The translations under genes were made by a program, and so were the position numbers. Shown here one piece after another: positions 2,550 through 33,746 of a DNA stretch of 35,399 nucleotides. Source of the DNA: a virus; the IMG/VR virus record IMGVR_UViG_3300032322_000641, positions 1 to 35,399 of that record; one strand, given 5' to 3'. How positions within the stretch are numbered: the first letter of the stretch is position 1; every line of letters starts with the position of its first letter. The notes under the pieces are model-generated. The model saw only the letters and a list, made by a program, of their open reading frames with translations, made no database searches and had not been told where the DNA came from.

Positions 2550-4586
2550 ATGGCATACGGAAAGAAATACATATTTTCAGCTATCAGCAAATCGGGGTTA
2601 ACCTATACTGCTGAAATGTGGGAGAATGATTACACGGGGCCCGAGTACAATGTAAACTCCGGTATGAGTCCATTCGTGCTAACCTGCGCAGGGTCGGGCG
2701 ATGACCCATTCCAACCAATACTACCAACGATATTCAACATCCGAGCAGACTTCACCGATTTTACAGGGCCTTACCCGGATTTGGTTTCTACGGATGACAG
2801 GAAGTATTACGTTCGGTTTGTTGCCAATAATGGAACGTACTTTGTATGGCAGGGGTTTGTATTAATGGATAGCATAGCCATACAATTTACAACTGGCAGA
2901 AACTTTGTTGATATTATTTGTGTAGATGGGTTAGGGTTACTGAAAACCGTACCATATCAACCTTCATCCGCAACAATTAACACATCCGAATCGCTACTGC
3001 AAATTATCCGCAACTGCTTACTGAATATAGCTTATCCGGTTACAATCTATATCAATTCGGCTATCAATTATTATGCTACCGCCCATAGTACGGCTGAATC
3101 TTATATCCGCAAAACTCACATATTCCCAACTACTTGGACTAACAATGATTATACGTTCAAAAGTTGTTACGATGTGTTACAGGATATTTGTGTGGCACAT
3201 GGAGCGCAACTATATCAATCGGGTGGTGAGTGGTGGATTACCTCGGTAAATGAAAGGGCATCCGATACGCTGCGTGTATTTCGTACCGATAGCACAAGCG
3301 CAACCGATACCTTGAGTACGGTTAACATTAACAGAAGAATAACACCATACCTAAGTGATGTTAGTACACCTTATTACTTTATTGATAATAGCCAAACTAA
3401 AGTAATTAAAAAGGGCTTTACATCGCTTGAGGTTATATCTGATTTAAACTATGCACAAAACACGGTTGATAACGGCAATATGTTTTTATTAACAGGTGGT
3501 ATTCCTACTAATTGGAGTAGGTCGCTTGGCACAGGTGGTACTTTTACAATGACTACGGTTGATGGAATCTATGGAGCGCAAATTACTTCTGGTACTACTA
3601 ACACTACGCTAAACGCTTTATCCTGTGGGGTTGTTAATGAGGGAGATATTCTTACTATTGAATTTCAAACTAAATGCAATGTAATTGGTGATTTGGAGGT
3701 TGAAATTTTATTGACTGCTGGGATGTCTACTTCAAGGTATGTTCAAGTTGCATCAGGGGCAGGAACGTGGGGCCCATCGCCAACGTACTACTTAGATGAA
3801 ATTACTAATACTAATTTACAAAATCGTACAATAACAACTACGCCTGCACCTGGTACAGGTAATCTTACTATTTCATTTAGGACAATTTCAACAGGCATAA
3901 CAAGCATATTTATTGCTAATCTAAAAAAGACTGCCTCCTCTACGTTAGCAAAAAAGCAAACTTTATACAATCAGACATCTAATAACCTTTATAAGAAGTC
4001 TATTAACTCGCCCATTGGCGGGCCATTCCCATCAACAAACGTATCGCAAATACAATCTATTTTATCCGTTTCAGATAATGCACTTGTAACATTTTCTCGG
4101 TTTTCCGGTGGCCCCTCTTACGCCAATTTGACTGCGTTACTATTTAGCCAATTGTATAATATTTACGGCAAAGCAAATATTAACCTACAATTAACGCAAT
4201 ACAATTTATTCACCGGATCAAAAGTAATCGGGTTGGTTGATAACTTTGGAGTCGAAGACCCAACATCCGTAATTAGCATAAATACTGCAAGGTTTACGTA
4301 TAGCAGTTGCACATTAGATTACGTTAACAACACAATATCCGGTACTGCATTAGAGGTATCTAATACTAATTTGCCGTACACATTAGTAAGTTCAATACCG
4401 CCAACACCGCCAACACCCTGCTTTAATTGGTACAATAATTCAGCAGCCAACTGGTTAGGCGATTACGTTGCATGTGATGGAACTTCTTACCCGGCTGCAA
4501 CATTAACACCTGGGCAGTTTGTATGCGCACAGGGTACACCCTTTACATTAACAGGCACCGATTTAGAACAAGGCGCACAATGCTAA
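2550..4586 (+). CDS. Distal tail / tail hub protein with C-terminal binding region
   Basis: This 678-residue protein directly follows the tape measure gene, where distal tail and hub proteins are found. The first 170 or so residues (FVLTCAGSGDDPFQPILPTIFNIRAD) are beta-rich and would form the tail-tip adaptor. Residues around 305-475 (NGGNMF-like start, repeated Thr/Ser strands) look like a carbohydrate-binding type beta-sandwich. The last 55 residues hold four Cys and several Trp/Tyr (CFNWYNNSAANWLGDYVACDG), a pattern I associate with surface-binding ends of Bacteroidota phage tail proteins. No enzyme motif was seen. Role at the tail tip is inferred from position. Confidence 0.65.
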   Translation: MAYGKKYIFSAISKSGLTYTAEMWENDYTGPEYNVNSGMSPFVLTCAGSGDDPFQPILPTIFNIRADFTDFTGPYPDLVSTDDRKYYVRFVANNGTYFVWQGFVLMDSIAIQFTTGRNFVDIICVDGLGLLKTVPYQPSSATINTSESLLQIIRNCLLNIAYPVTIYINSAINYYATAHSTAESYIRKTHIFPTTWTNNDYTFKSCYDVLQDICVAHGAQLYQSGGEWWITSVNERASDTLRVFRTDSTSATDTLSTVNINRRITPYLSDVSTPYYFIDNSQTKVIKKGFTSLEVISDLNYAQNTVDNGNMFLLTGGIPTNWSRSLGTGGTFTMTTVDGIYGAQITSGTTNTTLNALSCGVVNEGDILTIEFQTKCNVIGDLEVEILLTAGMSTSRYVQVASGAGTWGPSPTYYLDEITNTNLQNRTITTTPAPGTGNLTISFRTISTGITSIFIANLKKTASSTLAKKQTLYNQTSNNLYKKSINSPIGGPFPSTNVSQIQSILSVSDNALVTFSRFSGGPSYANLTALLFSQLYNIYGKANINLQLTQYNLFTGSKVIGLVDNFGVEDPTSVISINTARFTYSSCTLDYVNNTISGTALEVSNTNLPYTLVSSIPPTPPTPCFNWYNNSAANWLGDYVACDGTSYPAATLTPGQFVCAQGTPFTLTGTDLEQGAQC

Positions 4587-17619: not shown

Positions 17620-18422
17620 TTGAGTTAAATAAGATATACAATGAGAATTGTATTGATACAATGAATAGGATACCGGATAAATTTATTGATTTAACTGTAA
17701 CATCACCTCCATACGATAATTTGAGAGATTACCAAGGATACTCTTTTCCGTTTGAAGATATTGCAAAAGAGTTATATCGTATTACAAAAGTTGGTGGAGT
17801 ATTAGTATGGATAGTTGGCGATGCAACAATTAATGGCAGCGAAACAGGTACATCATTTAGACAAGCATTATTTTTTATGCAATGCGGCTTTAATTTACAT
17901 GACACAATGATTTATAGTAAAACACCAAGTTTTCCTGCTGCAACTGGTGATAAAAGATATTCTCAATCATTTGAGTATATGTTTATTTTCAGCAAAGCAG
18001 AGCCTAAAACTGCTAATTTATTAAAGGACACAAAAAATAAATGGGGCGGTTCTACTTCATGGGGTAAAACATCAGAGCGTAAAAAAGATGGAACTATTAA
18101 AGAAAGAGAATTGATTAATGTACAGGAGTTTGGGTATAGGTTTAATAATTGGGAATATGCAACAGGGAAAGGAAATACTACCCGTGATGATATTGCTTTT
18201 TTGCACCCTGCTATGTTTCCTGAAAAACTTGCAGAAGACCATATTTTAAGTTGGAGCAATGAAGGAGATATTGTTTATGACTGCTTTGGTGGCTCGGGTA
18301 CAACTGCTAAAATGTCTCATAAATGGAAGCGTAATTGGGTATTATCTGAAATATCAACTGAATACACCGAAATGGCAAACAAAAGACTACAACCATACCT
18401 TTCACAATCAACCCTATTCTAA
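17616..18422 (+). CDS. DNA methyltransferase, beta class (N4-cytosine or N6-adenine)
   Basis: The catalytic motif IV is TSPPY (residues 29-33) and the SAM-binding motif I is FGGSGTT (224-230) near the C-terminus. This order (catalytic before SAM-binding) defines the beta class. The SPPY form is typical of N4-cytosine enzymes, though N6-adenine cannot be excluded. Length, 268 residues, is usual for an orphan phage enzyme. The target region around 100-190 (GYRFNNWEYATGKGN) sets sequence specificity, which is unknown. It should mark phage DNA against host restriction or time packaging. No adjacent cognate restriction enzyme is apparent. Confidence 0.85.
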   Translation: MIELNKIYNENCIDTMNRIPDKFIDLTVTSPPYDNLRDYQGYSFPFEDIAKELYRITKVGGVLVWIVGDATINGSETGTSFRQALFFMQCGFNLHDTMIYSKTPSFPAATGDKRYSQSFEYMFIFSKAEPKTANLLKDTKNKWGGSTSWGKTSERKKDGTIKERELINVQEFGYRFNNWEYATGKGNTTRDDIAFLHPAMFPEKLAEDHILSWSNEGDIVYDCFGGSGTTAKMSHKWKRNWVLSEISTEYTEMANKRLQPYLSQSTLF

Positions 18423-18868
18423 TGAAACAACTCCCCCTCTGGAAACTACGCTATAACACCGCCCATTACAATTACACCGCCCAACGTACCCCAAGCATCG
18501 TAAAGGATGGTTTATACACGCCACCGCCTACGCCTGTAGTTACTAAATCCAATGGGCTGACTACGTTTATTATTAACTTCCTTAACTGGAGTGGATACCG
18601 GGCTACACGTATAAATACTATGGGCAGGCAAATTAATGGGAAGTTTATCCCATCTGCAACAAGGAAGGGGACTGCTGATATTTCGGCTACGATCCGGGAT
18701 AAGAACGGAATAGGCAGAAGCATTATGATAGAAATAAAAGTTGGGAAAGATAAAGCATCGCAGTATCAATTAGATGAGCAAAAAAAAGAAAGACAGGCAG
18801 GCGGCATCTATGAATTTATATCTACACCGGAACAATTTTTTACATTATTTGATTCAATAGTAAATTAA
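18422..18868 (+). CDS. VRR-NUC domain nuclease
   Basis: Residues 50-148 of this 148-residue protein show the VRR-NUC pattern: INFLNWSGYRATRIN, then RKGTADISATI, then IMIEIKVGKDKASQYQLDEQKKERQAGGIYEFI. The Asp in GTADI and Glu-x-Lys in IEIK form the PD-(D/E)XK active site. Such free-standing domains resolve branched DNA, like Holliday-junction resolvases. The start overlaps the methyltransferase stop by one base (TAATG). With the RecT-like and primase genes it probably serves replication and recombination or clears branches before packaging. Confidence 0.8.
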   Translation: MKQLPLWKLRYNTAHYNYTAQRTPSIVKDGLYTPPPTPVVTKSNGLTTFIINFLNWSGYRATRINTMGRQINGKFIPSATRKGTADISATIRDKNGIGRSIMIEIKVGKDKASQYQLDEQKKERQAGGIYEFISTPEQFFTLFDSIVN

Positions 18869-18879
18869 TTGTATATTTG
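18848..18879 (+). promoter_or_regulatory. Bacteroidota-type promoter
   Basis: TTTG (18848-18851), a 20-base spacer and TATATTTG (18872-18879) match the consensus exactly. Transcription would start about 18881-18886, immediately at the 5' end of the structured RNA. The promoter overlaps the end of the VRR-NUC gene, so the RNA has a separate start within the early operon. Confidence 0.75.
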
Positions 18880-18881
18880 TA

Positions 18882-18966
18882 TTGTTGTGTGGTAGCAACA
18901 ATTAAGAACTTTATGCCCGAAGATTAGGGATGCGACTACCACCGCTCCCTTTTCTGAGGGTTTTTT
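18882..18966 (+). ncRNA. Structured RNA with kissing hairpins and terminator-like end
   Basis: About 85 bases between the promoter and the HNH gene fold into two hairpins. Hairpin 1 has stem TTGTTG (18882-18887) with CAACAA (18896-18901) and loop TGTGGTAG. Hairpin 2 has stem GGGA-GCG (18927-18934, one T bulge) with CGCTCCC (18943-18949) and loop ACTACCAC. Seven loop bases, GTGGTAG (18889-18895) and CTACCAC (18936-18942), are fully complementary, so the loops can kiss, or alternatively form one 7-bp stem enclosing the middle. At the 3' end CCCT (18947-18950) pairs with AGGG (18957-18960) before TTTTTT, a terminator that competes with hairpin 2. It may be a small RNA or a leader that controls the next gene. 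Confidence 0.65.
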
Positions 18967-18970
18967 ATTT

Positions 18971-19741
18971 ATGGAAAAGGAATGTAAAGAATGTACTAAA
19001 TTATTTAGAGTAAAGCCATCTCATTTTAGTAGAAGAATAGTTTGTTCTAAAAAATGCCAATCTGAATTATATAAAAAAAGTATGATTGGTGTAAACAACC
19101 CAAATTATAAAAACAACTTAATAAAAGAATTTACCTGTATAAGTTGTAATACTAAATTTATACTACCGACAAGAAAAAAAGTAGTAAAAACATGTTCTAA
19201 GAAATGTTATTTAAAAAATCTTAGTAAACTACACAAAGGAAAAACAATATTTAACAAAAGGAAAAGAACGCATATTACATTAGATAAAATGTTTTGTAAA
19301 TGCGGAACAAAAAAAGATGTTAAATCAAATACATGTTCAACGTGTTTTATAAATTCTATAAAAAGGGAGTATAAAAAATGTGTAATTTGTTCAAATGTTT
19401 TCTACCCTAATACAAATAGAGCTAAATTTTGCTCAGTTGAATGTATAAAAATAAATAAACAAAAAACTACAAAAGGTAAAGGTAATCCCAACTGGAAAGG
19501 AGGAATTGGTTCTGCCAATCAAATAGAAAGAAAATCAAAAGAATTTAAAGATTGGAGATTGTCTGTTTTTATAAGAGATAAATACACTTGCTTGGATTGC
19601 GGTAAAATAGGTGGTACTTTGCATGCCCACCACATTTTGCCATTTGCGAAATATAAAGAATTAAGATTTGAAATAACCAATGGAAAAACTTTATGTGTTA
19701 GCTGCCATAAAAAGTATCATACAAACATGAATTTTAAATAA
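18971..19741 (+). CDS. HNH homing-type endonuclease with zinc fingers
   Basis: This 256-residue protein is built from several short Cys-pair modules (CKECTKLF...CSKKC, CISCNTKF...CSKKC, CKCG...CSTC, CVICSNVF...CSVEC), then GKGNPNWKGGI (a NUMOD-like linker) and a C-terminal HNH domain at about 192-250: RDKYTCLDCGK, HAHHILPF, NGKTLCVSCHKKYH. The Cys4 pairs hold a structural zinc and the HH is the active-site region. Free-standing enzymes like this are mobile homing or nicking nucleases. It is distinctly more AT-rich than its neighbours, a sign of separate acquisition. Start is the ATG five bases after the T-run of the structured RNA. Confidence 0.85.
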   Translation: MEKECKECTKLFRVKPSHFSRRIVCSKKCQSELYKKSMIGVNNPNYKNNLIKEFTCISCNTKFILPTRKKVVKTCSKKCYLKNLSKLHKGKTIFNKRKRTHITLDKMFCKCGTKKDVKSNTCSTCFINSIKREYKKCVICSNVFYPNTNRAKFCSVECIKINKQKTTKGKGNPNWKGGIGSANQIERKSKEFKDWRLSVFIRDKYTCLDCGKIGGTLHAHHILPFAKYKELRFEITNGKTLCVSCHKKYHTNMNFK

Positions 19742-19748
19742 CCCACCA

Positions 19749-21950
19749 ATGCACCAATACACCGACTACCAATCACTCGGATTAAAAGTCATCCCTATAC
19801 AATGGGATAGCGAAACAAAGCAACCTGTATCACATCGCAACTGGAGCAATCCCGATGACCTGCACCTTCGCCCTACGGATAATGGGTTAATGATACTAAC
19901 AGGCAACAACTACGGCTGCTTAGACTTTGACCTCAAGAATACAAAAGATAAGGAACTATTCAGCAAGTGGATGGCTATAATAACCAACGAGGCACCAGAA
20001 ATCTTCAGCAAGGTATTCATTGAACAAACCCGCAACGCAGGGTATCACGTGTGGCTGAACTATGCAGCACTACCCAACAAGACACCGCTTGCCGAATCCC
20101 CAGAGGGTAACGAGGTAATCGCCCTGTATTCAAATGGCCCGGTGGTTTACACATTTCCAACACCCGGTTATACAGAATTTCACCAAAGTATGGAAGATGT
20201 GCAGGAGTTAACTGAAAGTGAGTATAACTACCTAATAGAAGTTTCACAATACTTTAACGAATACAAACCCAAGTACGACCCAAGCAAGAAAGCAATTAGC
20301 TATCCGGCCGGGTATGAGCAGCAAATGAGCGACTTTGATACGCAAATATCCGATAGTGATTTCGATACCTTACTTGCAGATATAGGACTAATTCCCATAC
20401 AAGGCTACCGATACGGTAAGAATGATAAGTTCCAGGCATACAGGCGCAAGGGTAGCGATTCGGCCGGCATATCCGCTAAAGTGTATTATAACGCTCGCAG
20501 GGTTATGATATTCAGCGCATCCATGAGTAACTTTCCCCACTGGCACAATAAAGAGCAATATCCGGTGTGGTGCTTGCCGCCATCGTTTATTCTGTTCTAC
20601 CACCTCGGCAGGGATTGGGATGCCGTACTCAAACACATAGGCATTGAACCCGTTGAACAGGGTTACCCTTATAGTATTTTCCCACAACTTATTAACAATT
20701 CGCTGCACGAAGTAGCAACCGAAATGAGTCTATGCCCGGAGTTTCTTGCTACGGCCGGAATATGGACTATATCATCACTTGCTGGCAACTGCTACACATC
20801 CGACTTCCACAATGTTAAAAACATCGTATTTGCCATAATGATTGCCCCGGTATCGGTGGGTAAAACACCTGCATTCAAAGCTATGTGTGAGGAACCATTA
20901 GCCGGGCTATTAAAAACAGAAGATGCCGCCTATAAATTAGCAATCGATAACTGGCTACTTGAGAAAGCATCCGCCAATGTAAATAAGGAATCATTCAGCA
21001 AACCCAAGCCTAAACGATTTCACCCATTTGCAGTTGATGGCACAACGGAGGGCTACATCGCCCTAATGCAAGACCAGGAAGCAGGCATGGGGGTATATCA
21101 CGATGAAGCGGAAACAATACTTAATGCAGGGGCGCACAAAGCCAATAACGATGCAATTTCATTTTTCACCCAAGCATTCACCGGGGGCAGGTACACTCAA
21201 ATCAGAGCAGATCGGGAGAAAGAAAGGGTAGTTAAATCCCTTAACATATCCCTGCTAATGGGTACGCAGCCATCCAGGTTAGCGCACATATTCGGTGCCG
21301 ATAAAATTCAATCAGGATTTGCAAGCCGATTCCTTATGGTAAAATCCGATTACATCAAACTGAATGAAGATGCCGACCCATTCAGCGGTGGCCGGCAAAT
21401 GTGTAAGGAATGGAAGGAACTCGTTACTCACCTTTACCGCATTAACAAAGAATTTGCAGCCGGAGATTGTGCGCCCATACGTATTGAGATTACACCGGAT
21501 GCGAAAACACTATACACGAAGTACTACAGGCAGAATTTAGCGGATGCCAATAGCCGGATGGCAGGTAAGGCCGAGCAATACATAATGGGTGCGGAAGCTA
21601 AAATGAGCGCATACTTCCCACGAATGTGCCATGTGGTAAGTATCTGTCATAATCCACTAAAACCGGTTATAACGGTGGAAATAGTCAACAAAGCATATAA
21701 CCTATACAGGTACTATGCCGAGAGTACGATATCCATAATTAGTGAGTTATGCGCTGAAACTGAATCCGGATTGCCTGCAGACCTGCGCCTGTTAGTTGAT
21801 AACCTACCGCCAAAGTTTACAACAAAGGAGGTAGATTTGCTATGTGTAAGATTTAACATTAAGCCTAAAAGGTTTTTCAATGCGATTCGCAGGGCTGACT
21901 TTGCGAGGGTGATTAAGAGGGTGGCGCATGGGCAGTATGAGAAAATGTAG
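19749..21950 (+). CDS. Primase-helicase-like replication protein (PrimPol-DUF3987)
   Basis: The 733-residue protein joins two parts. Residues about 1-170 resemble the bifunctional primase/polymerase (PrimPol) fold: VIPIQWD, the metal-binding DFD (CLDFDLK, Asp59 and Asp61) and AGYHVW with His100. Residues about 310-730 match DUF3987, a DnaB/RepA-like ATPase: a Walker A-like APVSVGKT (366-373), GVYHDEAETI as probable Walker B, and LLMGTQPSR later. Such fusions prime and unwind phage or plasmid DNA at the origin. The gene is the last of the early operon; a strong terminator and the iteron-bearing candidate origin follow directly, consistent with an initiator role. Confidence 0.8.
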   Translation: MHQYTDYQSLGLKVIPIQWDSETKQPVSHRNWSNPDDLHLRPTDNGLMILTGNNYGCLDFDLKNTKDKELFSKWMAIITNEAPEIFSKVFIEQTRNAGYHVWLNYAALPNKTPLAESPEGNEVIALYSNGPVVYTFPTPGYTEFHQSMEDVQELTESEYNYLIEVSQYFNEYKPKYDPSKKAISYPAGYEQQMSDFDTQISDSDFDTLLADIGLIPIQGYRYGKNDKFQAYRRKGSDSAGISAKVYYNARRVMIFSASMSNFPHWHNKEQYPVWCLPPSFILFYHLGRDWDAVLKHIGIEPVEQGYPYSIFPQLINNSLHEVATEMSLCPEFLATAGIWTISSLAGNCYTSDFHNVKNIVFAIMIAPVSVGKTPAFKAMCEEPLAGLLKTEDAAYKLAIDNWLLEKASANVNKESFSKPKPKRFHPFAVDGTTEGYIALMQDQEAGMGVYHDEAETILNAGAHKANNDAISFFTQAFTGGRYTQIRADREKERVVKSLNISLLMGTQPSRLAHIFGADKIQSGFASRFLMVKSDYIKLNEDADPFSGGRQMCKEWKELVTHLYRINKEFAAGDCAPIRIEITPDAKTLYTKYYRQNLADANSRMAGKAEQYIMGAEAKMSAYFPRMCHVVSICHNPLKPVITVEIVNKAYNLYRYYAESTISIISELCAETESGLPADLRLLVDNLPPKFTTKEVDLLCVRFNIKPKRFFNAIRRADFARVIKRVAHGQYEKM

Positions 21951-33261: not shown

Positions 33262-33746
33262 GCTATGCCGAACCGGTAACTCTTGCAGAGGCGAAATTGT
33301 ACATTCGTGTTTCTCATACTTCTGAAGATGCACAAATATCTGAAATGATACGGGCTGCCAGGCAAATAATTGAGAAAGCCACAGGGTTATCCCTTATCAC
33401 TAAGCAGGCAGAAGTATGGTTTTGCAATAAAGGGGGATGGTTTCAATTTCCGCACGGCCCGATAACTTCATCCATTACCCTGTATGATGTAACCACAGGC
33501 ACCGAACTAACTGATAAGACTATCATGGGCGGTAAGCATCCGGTTATTACCTTCCCTGCTATTGACAAAATGCGGGCGGTGTATAATGTTGGATTCACGG
33601 CATTACCCAATCCTTTGAAAACGGCTATACTTGACCAGGTGAATCACTTGTATGAAAATAGGGGGGCATTCGATGAAACGATGGGTGTATGTCTGAAAGC
33701 ATGGCGCACTTGTCAGATGTACACTAAAACATCACCTATCTTATGA
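33216..33746 (+). CDS. Head-tail connector protein (gp6-like)
   Basis: The 176-residue protein matches head-tail adaptors of the HK97 gp6/SPP1 gp15 type: EPVTLAEAKLYIRVSHTSEDAQISEMIRAARQIIEKATGLSL at the start, then PHGPITSSITLYDVTTG and a helix near LKTAILDQVNHLYENRGA. It joins the portal to the neck. Its start overlaps the GT4 gene by 46 bases, so it is read through from that gene. Order (connector, head closure, gp10, tail terminator) is that of many siphoviruses. Confidence 0.8.
   Translation: MGNYSYIFDSNITEVSYAEPVTLAEAKLYIRVSHTSEDAQISEMIRAARQIIEKATGLSLITKQAEVWFCNKGGWFQFPHGPITSSITLYDVTTGTELTDKTIMGGKHPVITFPAIDKMRAVYNVGFTALPNPLKTAILDQVNHLYENRGAFDETMGVCLKAWRTCQMYTKTSPIL

Follow-up and report, generated by a model that had tools for sequence, protein, structure and literature searches.

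The RNA encoded at positions 18881-18966 of the window (the whole stretch of viral DNA analysed here, 35,399 nucleotides) is apparently, to judge from its sequence, one case of an RNA family that has not been recorded before. The loop of its 5' hairpin matches, by complementarity, a loop or bulge of the terminator hairpin, a relation that is kept by both-side changes, and it is framed by a Bacteroidota -7 box just before hairpin 1 and a start codon just past the U-run. The element can be read, tentatively and at a little under even chances, as a self-kissing leader RNA that would act in cis as a transcriptional attenuator of the next gene. Its parts and neighbours in the window are as follows.

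18422..18868, + strand: upstream ORF, endonuclease-like (phrog_93), the 3' end of which holds the -33 box; we take it from reading the sequence to be VRR-NUC-like, Pfam giving no confirmation
18848..18851, + strand: -33 promoter element TTTG, seen in the sequence within the 3' end of the upstream ORF
18872..18879, + strand: -7 promoter element TATATTTG, seen in the sequence after a 20-nt spacer from TTTG
18881..18902, + strand: hairpin 1, the RNA 5' end (arms 18881-18887 and 18896-18902, loop 18888-18895)
18889..18895, + strand: loop code L1, GUGGUAG, perfect complement of L2
18903..18914, + strand: AU-rich linker, 12 nt in the window and 10-25 nt in relatives
18915..18961, + strand: terminator hairpin with helices GCCC/GGGU (base), AGA/UCU, AGGGA/UCCCU and GCG/CGC and apical loop 18935-18942, from the fold and equivalent-helix covariation
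18936..18942, + strand: loop code L2, CUACCAC, in the apical loop and 5' of the terminator 3' arm
18961..18966, + strand: U-run of the intrinsic terminator, six T, seen in the sequence
18971..19741, + strand: HNH endonuclease gene behind the RNA (PF01844, E 4.8e-6; phrog_1271, E 3e-21)
19749..21950, + strand: gene for a DUF3987 protein, a primase/helicase-type replication gene, next after the HNH gene

The start codon of the HNH gene lies 4 nt past the U-run, and the promoter directly before the element is of the Bacteroidota type, TTTG/TAnnTTTG being the reported consensus of the Bacteroidota primary sigma factor (PMC7366714). The coordinates that the initial annotation had given for the promoter, the loop complementarity and the U-run all agree with the sequence, and its proposal of a separate structured RNA that has a promoter and a terminator of its own is supported by homologue structure and by the fold: the window RNA folds at -30.9 kcal/mol against a mean of -17.3 for dinucleotide shuffles (z -4.4), and none of the 200 shuffles folded equally well. 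When both strands of the 35-kb window were scanned with a descriptor that asks for a hairpin and, complementary to it, part of a terminator hairpin followed by a T-run, the sole match was this element; among 200 dinucleotide-shuffled windows none matched the element's score together with promoter and ATG.

In the most stable fold, hairpin 2 (18926-18950) is the top of a single long terminator stem, the base of which pairs GCCC 18915-18918 with GGGU 18958-18961. The initial annotation had instead drawn CCCT 18947-18950 and AGGG 18957-18960 as a separate, competing terminator sharing CCC with hairpin 2; this is not supported, the homologues and the most stable fold both using one nested stem. 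Its further suggestion, that the hairpins could be replaced by one long-range stem, is disfavoured, because all three helices covary together and thereby favour the kissing (pseudoknotted) fold. As to alternative folds, no antiterminator helix is conserved in the homologues, and a classical two-state switch is not visible.

Relatives were gathered via the upstream ORF, and the region past their stop codons was compared. About 26 loop sequences occur among related phages, the complementary partner being kept in nearly all; examples are the pairs GUAGAACC/GGUUCUAC in L156, GUGAAACC/GGUUUCAC in L160, GGUGAAAGC/GCUUUCACC in L164, GUGCCGG/CCGGCAC in L163, AUUGCGC/GCGCAAU in L169 and GUAGAGA/UCUCUAC in L173. 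Further elements stand at Lin1244_N (DUF4373) replication-protein loci and at DUF6291 loci. The DUF6291 group (L352, L366, L390) has hairpin 1 lengthened by a second helix on the outside, GTTAAC ... GTTAA, which bears GAAA as a side bulge.

In an alignment of 16 elements, the sequences of which are related and several of which were found by a descriptor that demanded complementarity, the whole structure is paired in 85.8% of cells as against 60.3% when shuffled, both-side changes are present in 108 cells as against 40, and the covariation score is 0.649 as against 0.218 for shuffled alignments and 0.11-0.22 with the partners slid. Compensatory loop changes across homologues, which had been named beforehand as a check on the loop pairing, are found in the same alignment, the loop-loop helix being paired in 92.4% of cells with both-side changes in six of its seven pairs; for helix 3, the terminator stem including hairpin 2, the figures are 85% of cells and 12 of 14 pairs. 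A position-only test, free of any selection for complementarity, required only a terminator hairpin and T-run beside an ATG and thereby selected 21 out of 144 distinct upstream regions. In 17 of these 21, automatic scoring showed complementarity between the loop of the strongest hairpin upstream and the inside of the terminator; in the other four, where the script took the wrong first hairpin, the complementarity is visible by eye.

Two subtypes can be distinguished by the location of L2. It forms the apical loop of the terminator in the window, L034, L051, L163, L169 and L173, and in L156, L157, L160, L164, L059 and L048 it is a 7-9-nt segment on the 3' side, under an extra apical hairpin; in both subtypes the 3' arm of the terminator follows it. 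Within each subtype hairpin 1 and L2 are separated by a fairly constant distance, and linker length and lower-stem length are anticorrelated (Spearman -0.63).

Placement is equally regular. An exact TAnnTTTG precedes hairpin 1 in 31 of 37 elements, at a distance of 1-12 nt in nearly all, and the RNA runs to about 85-120 bases across the family. From the start of hairpin 1 to the ATG there are 84-119 nt in 40 of 41 elements, the remaining one, L163, having about 89 nt once its start is corrected, and the gap from U-run to start codon is almost always about 0-25 nt. A -7 box falls between hairpin 1 and the ATG in only two of 39 elements. On the opposite strand the neighbourhood of the element has fewer -7 boxes than the background (0.20 vs 0.67 per kb), and because such antisense boxes are not enriched nothing points to an antisense regulator. 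Control through ribosomes translating the upstream ORF was weighed and rejected, the stop codon of this ORF lying anywhere from -1 to 172 nt from hairpin 1.

The spread of the RNA was assessed with a gene-blind pattern, TATATTTG-N4-24-GTGGTAG-N26-56-CTACCAC, which has 22 fixed bases and was run on viral contigs. It occurs in 105 viral contigs as 73 distinct elements, a few chance matches being expected from the pattern length. A T-run follows within 60 nt of L2 in 104 of the 105 contigs; the next ORF is on the same strand in 52 of 53 distinct elements with a clear hairpin 1, and in 41 of the 52 distinct elements with an ORF an ATG lies within 20 nt behind the T-run. Most of the genes that follow the RNA encode replication proteins or homing endonucleases. 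The 69 downstream proteins of the gene-blind set include 15 BT4734-like primases, eight Lin1244_N, seven DUF6291 and two DUF3987 proteins on the one hand, and at least 14 homing endonucleases (12 HNH_3 and two GIY-YIG, plus NUMOD, AP2 and T5orf172 domains) on the other. The gene after the endonuclease is a replication gene in some cases (the window, L122) and another gene in others.

Copy number was scanned in 19 contigs, sixteen larger ones and three of 17-22 kb. By strict criteria 13 of the 19 hold one element with promoter and ATG, one of these (G024) having a second, weaker match. The 10-kb contig L043 has two elements, at 4209 and 6639, with loop codes GTAGGAG and GTGGTAG, which precede a DUF6291 gene and a ParB-like gene. 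A search for tyrosine integrases, serine integrases lying outside it, found none in 18 element-bearing records, for which reason the phages that carry the element look virulent, though many of the records may be fragments. Among named phages nothing is similar to the window's own sequences, DNA or protein, and the viral collection contains a single distant relative of the window's HNH protein. The isolated Flavobacterium phage 11b (L329, NC_006356.2) carries an element at 33634-33724, with loop code CGGGCAGG/CCTGCCCG, before PHG11b_62/63; laboratory tests are therefore possible.

When the exact loop-code pattern was used without the promoter, it returned mostly chance matches. A GTGGTAG hairpin with a CTACCAC terminator hairpin, lacking a Bacteroidota promoter, is present in L041, L080 (minus strand, ~196 and ~350), L005 (minus strand, 11559) and L111 (2539); these contigs resemble phages of other phyla, the next gene being DUF2815-like or HTH, and the layout may be wider than Bacteroidota. 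A covariance model built without the kissing helix, R1, recovers the better-conserved half of the family and misses L160, L214, L169 and L173; run over 395 Bacteroidota genomes, with 10 candidates scored in each, R1, which itself misses several known elements, gave no match.

Close relatives of the window show what varies at this site. Where the upstream ORF is >90% identical, the same RNA precedes a GIY-YIG gene in L121-L123 and L172, and neither RNA nor endonuclease is present in L125-L127 and L155; both are likewise missing in L132 and L135, the upstream ORFs of which are 78-79% identical. Between the window and L121 the RNA is near letter-for-letter identical up to the start codon, after which the sequences diverge into HNH and GIY-YIG genes. 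By this pattern the RNA of the window clade is a movable leader that travels together with the gene it precedes. The initial annotation's proposal that it controls the HNH gene is partly supported, insofar as the element lies directly before that gene; the element is not HNH-specific, since the same RNA precedes GIY-YIG genes in close relatives and one of the same kind precedes replication genes in others. Ten related records that lack the element at this site have no R1 match elsewhere, and because they are without a detectable copy the element is dispensable in related phages.

Between upstream ORF and primase, L125, L126, L127 and L155 still hold the ORF's 3' end a second time, as a remnant (ATATTTGACACCCTATAACC) that resembles a scar left by a cassette with a 3' end of its own and likely marks an insertion hotspot. 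In L131, L140, L141, L144, L147 and L148 this site is occupied by other genes, inserted without the RNA, among them genes for a D12-type methylase-like protein and, by eye, a helicase-like protein. Because these RNA-less genes are inserted there too, the ORF-primase junction appears to be a general cargo hotspot.

If the element is an attenuator, host RNA polymerase would start at the TTTG/TAnnTTTG promoter, with hairpin 1 as the RNA 5' end, and most transcripts would stop at the intrinsic terminator 85-120 nt on, yielding a short stable RNA. Only read-through would reach the gene 0-25 nt past the U-run, be it a replication gene or a homing endonuclease. L2 would emerge just before the terminator 3' arm, where L1 could catch it, and the resulting kiss would set the ease with which the terminator base closes and hence the expression level of the gene behind; it may hinder closing, aid closing, or merely stabilise the short RNA. 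From the sequence we infer that promoter and terminator are active, that the loops kiss in vivo and that kissing alters read-through. The gap from U-run to start codon being too short for a promoter, the downstream gene would be transcribed only by polymerase that passes the terminator, and this dependence makes the attenuator the most economical reading; such polymerase could also have started at promoters further upstream.

A free-standing, trans-acting phage small RNA, with a compact nuclease-resistant fold recognised by shape by a host or phage partner and with the next gene a mere neighbour, is possible and has perhaps one chance in a few of being correct. It would account for a promoter set tight against hairpin 1, for a strong terminator of the RNA's own, for an architecture that is conserved while the primary sequence varies freely, for the fact that most larger phage contigs checked have one clear copy and for the occurrence of the same RNA before unrelated genes. 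The closeness of the next gene would also be expected of such an RNA in a compact genome, which counts against the attenuator. The start codon nevertheless follows the U-run almost invariably too closely for a promoter to fit, the choice of the next gene is clearly non-random, and no conserved single-stranded partner motif was recognised, all of which argue against a small RNA of this kind.

The pairing of promoter and terminator might also form a passive cassette that provides a small constant leak, the kiss only stabilising the terminator or the RNA. The terminators are strong, with U-runs of 4-9 nt, and low leakage would be useful for toxic genes such as homing endonucleases; a plain terminator, however, needs no complementary 5' loop, yet this loop is kept in about 26 sequence versions, and the explanation is improbable.

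Still less probable is an oligomerising scaffold RNA, in which L1 and L2 would pair between molecules, as in phi29 pRNA, and yield dimers or rings. A complementary loop pair within one phage RNA is a feature of pRNA (PMC7357161), and some support comes from a rough estimate of geometry that considers length only (2.8 A per base pair, 6.5 A per linker nucleotide). By this estimate the linker is too short in six of 31 elements, the window included, for a straight, rigid intramolecular rod of hairpin, kiss and closed terminator; these six would need a bent rod, an opened terminator base or a kiss between molecules. The same estimate finds the linker long enough in the other 25, however, and the rather constant chain distance from hairpin 1 to L2 is as expected of an intramolecular contact. 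The neighbours, moreover, are replication and endonuclease genes rather than packaging genes, and the window has no Rfam pRNA match. The weakest candidate is a replication-origin transcript, a short RNA near an initiator or primase gene that activates an origin or primes DNA synthesis, which would fit the usual single copy per contig beside replication genes and is very unlikely given its absence from close relatives with ~96% identical primases, its presence before homing endonucleases with no replication gene behind and the lack of a GC-skew switch at the element in the window.

The attenuator reading has a wider form, possible yet doubtful, according to which a terminator governed by the kiss of its own loop with a 5' hairpin would be a new control element with which Bacteroidota phages meter replication genes, and the leader would have been adopted repeatedly by homing endonucleases. 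The kiss would then take one of two forms, occurring either inside the RNA as it is being made or from one terminated copy to another, in which case it would sense gene dosage. If replication genes are metered thus, the device is compact, its on/off contact lying in two interchangeable 7-base loops; the idea is easily tested by compensatory mutation and, if true, may offer a tunable part for Bacteroides and Flavobacterium. A single loop code already yields 105 phage contigs, and this common structured RNA is missing from Rfam 15; it sits where Bacteroidota phages, which are abundant yet poorly understood, start their replication genes. An RNA leader also offers a reason for homing endonucleases settling at one exact spot.

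The statement in the initial annotation that the RNA could not be matched to a named family agrees with Rfam 15, which at curated thresholds has no match in the window and only tRNAs at 15 related loci; the best sub-threshold scores at the element were 17-19 bits against thresholds of 45-50, and permissive E-values gave chance matches only. The P4 CI/c4 prophage immunity RNA, which serves lysogenic immunity in temperate phages, was also considered; c4 is an Rfam family and is likewise unmatched in the window. In the part of the literature that was searched, there is no description of a kissing loop tied to a phage terminator leader; the family may be among unnamed published candidates. The put RNA of HK022 and similar polymerase-binding antiterminators likewise open a transcript with a short, structured phage RNA; put is not known to end in a U-run terminator of its own, as the leader RNA does.

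IsrK of prophage Gifsy-1 resembles the element in that one promoter yields either a short terminated RNA or a read-through phage-gene mRNA, the two share sequence, and RNA-RNA pairing matters (PMC4825925). IsrK differs in controlling translation in trans in a prophage and in its genes, which are unrelated to those behind the leader RNA, and the abstract on it mentions no pairing of a 5' hairpin loop with a terminator loop. In plasmid pIP501 a leader is terminated prematurely ahead of the replication initiator gene repR, as the leader RNA would be before replication genes, with the need for a separate 136-nt antisense RNA, RNAIII (PMC4981023). Unlike antisense attenuators of the pIP501/pT181 type, the present element has its complementarity internally and shows no enrichment of antisense promoter boxes. 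Type III toxin-antitoxin and AbiF loci have a promoter, a structured RNA, an intrinsic terminator and a protein gene (PMC12373285), and share the order RNA, terminator, protein gene; the element differs from them in having no tandem repeats, toxin gene or Rfam abiF match. The phi29 pRNA is again a phage RNA with two complementary loops (PMC7357161), whereas its size, fold (a long terminator hairpin being present here), position and gene context are different, and intermolecular pairing has been shown for pRNA only. None of IsrK, pIP501, type III/AbiF or pRNA joins an internal loop-to-terminator kiss with a replication or homing gene, as the leader RNA does.
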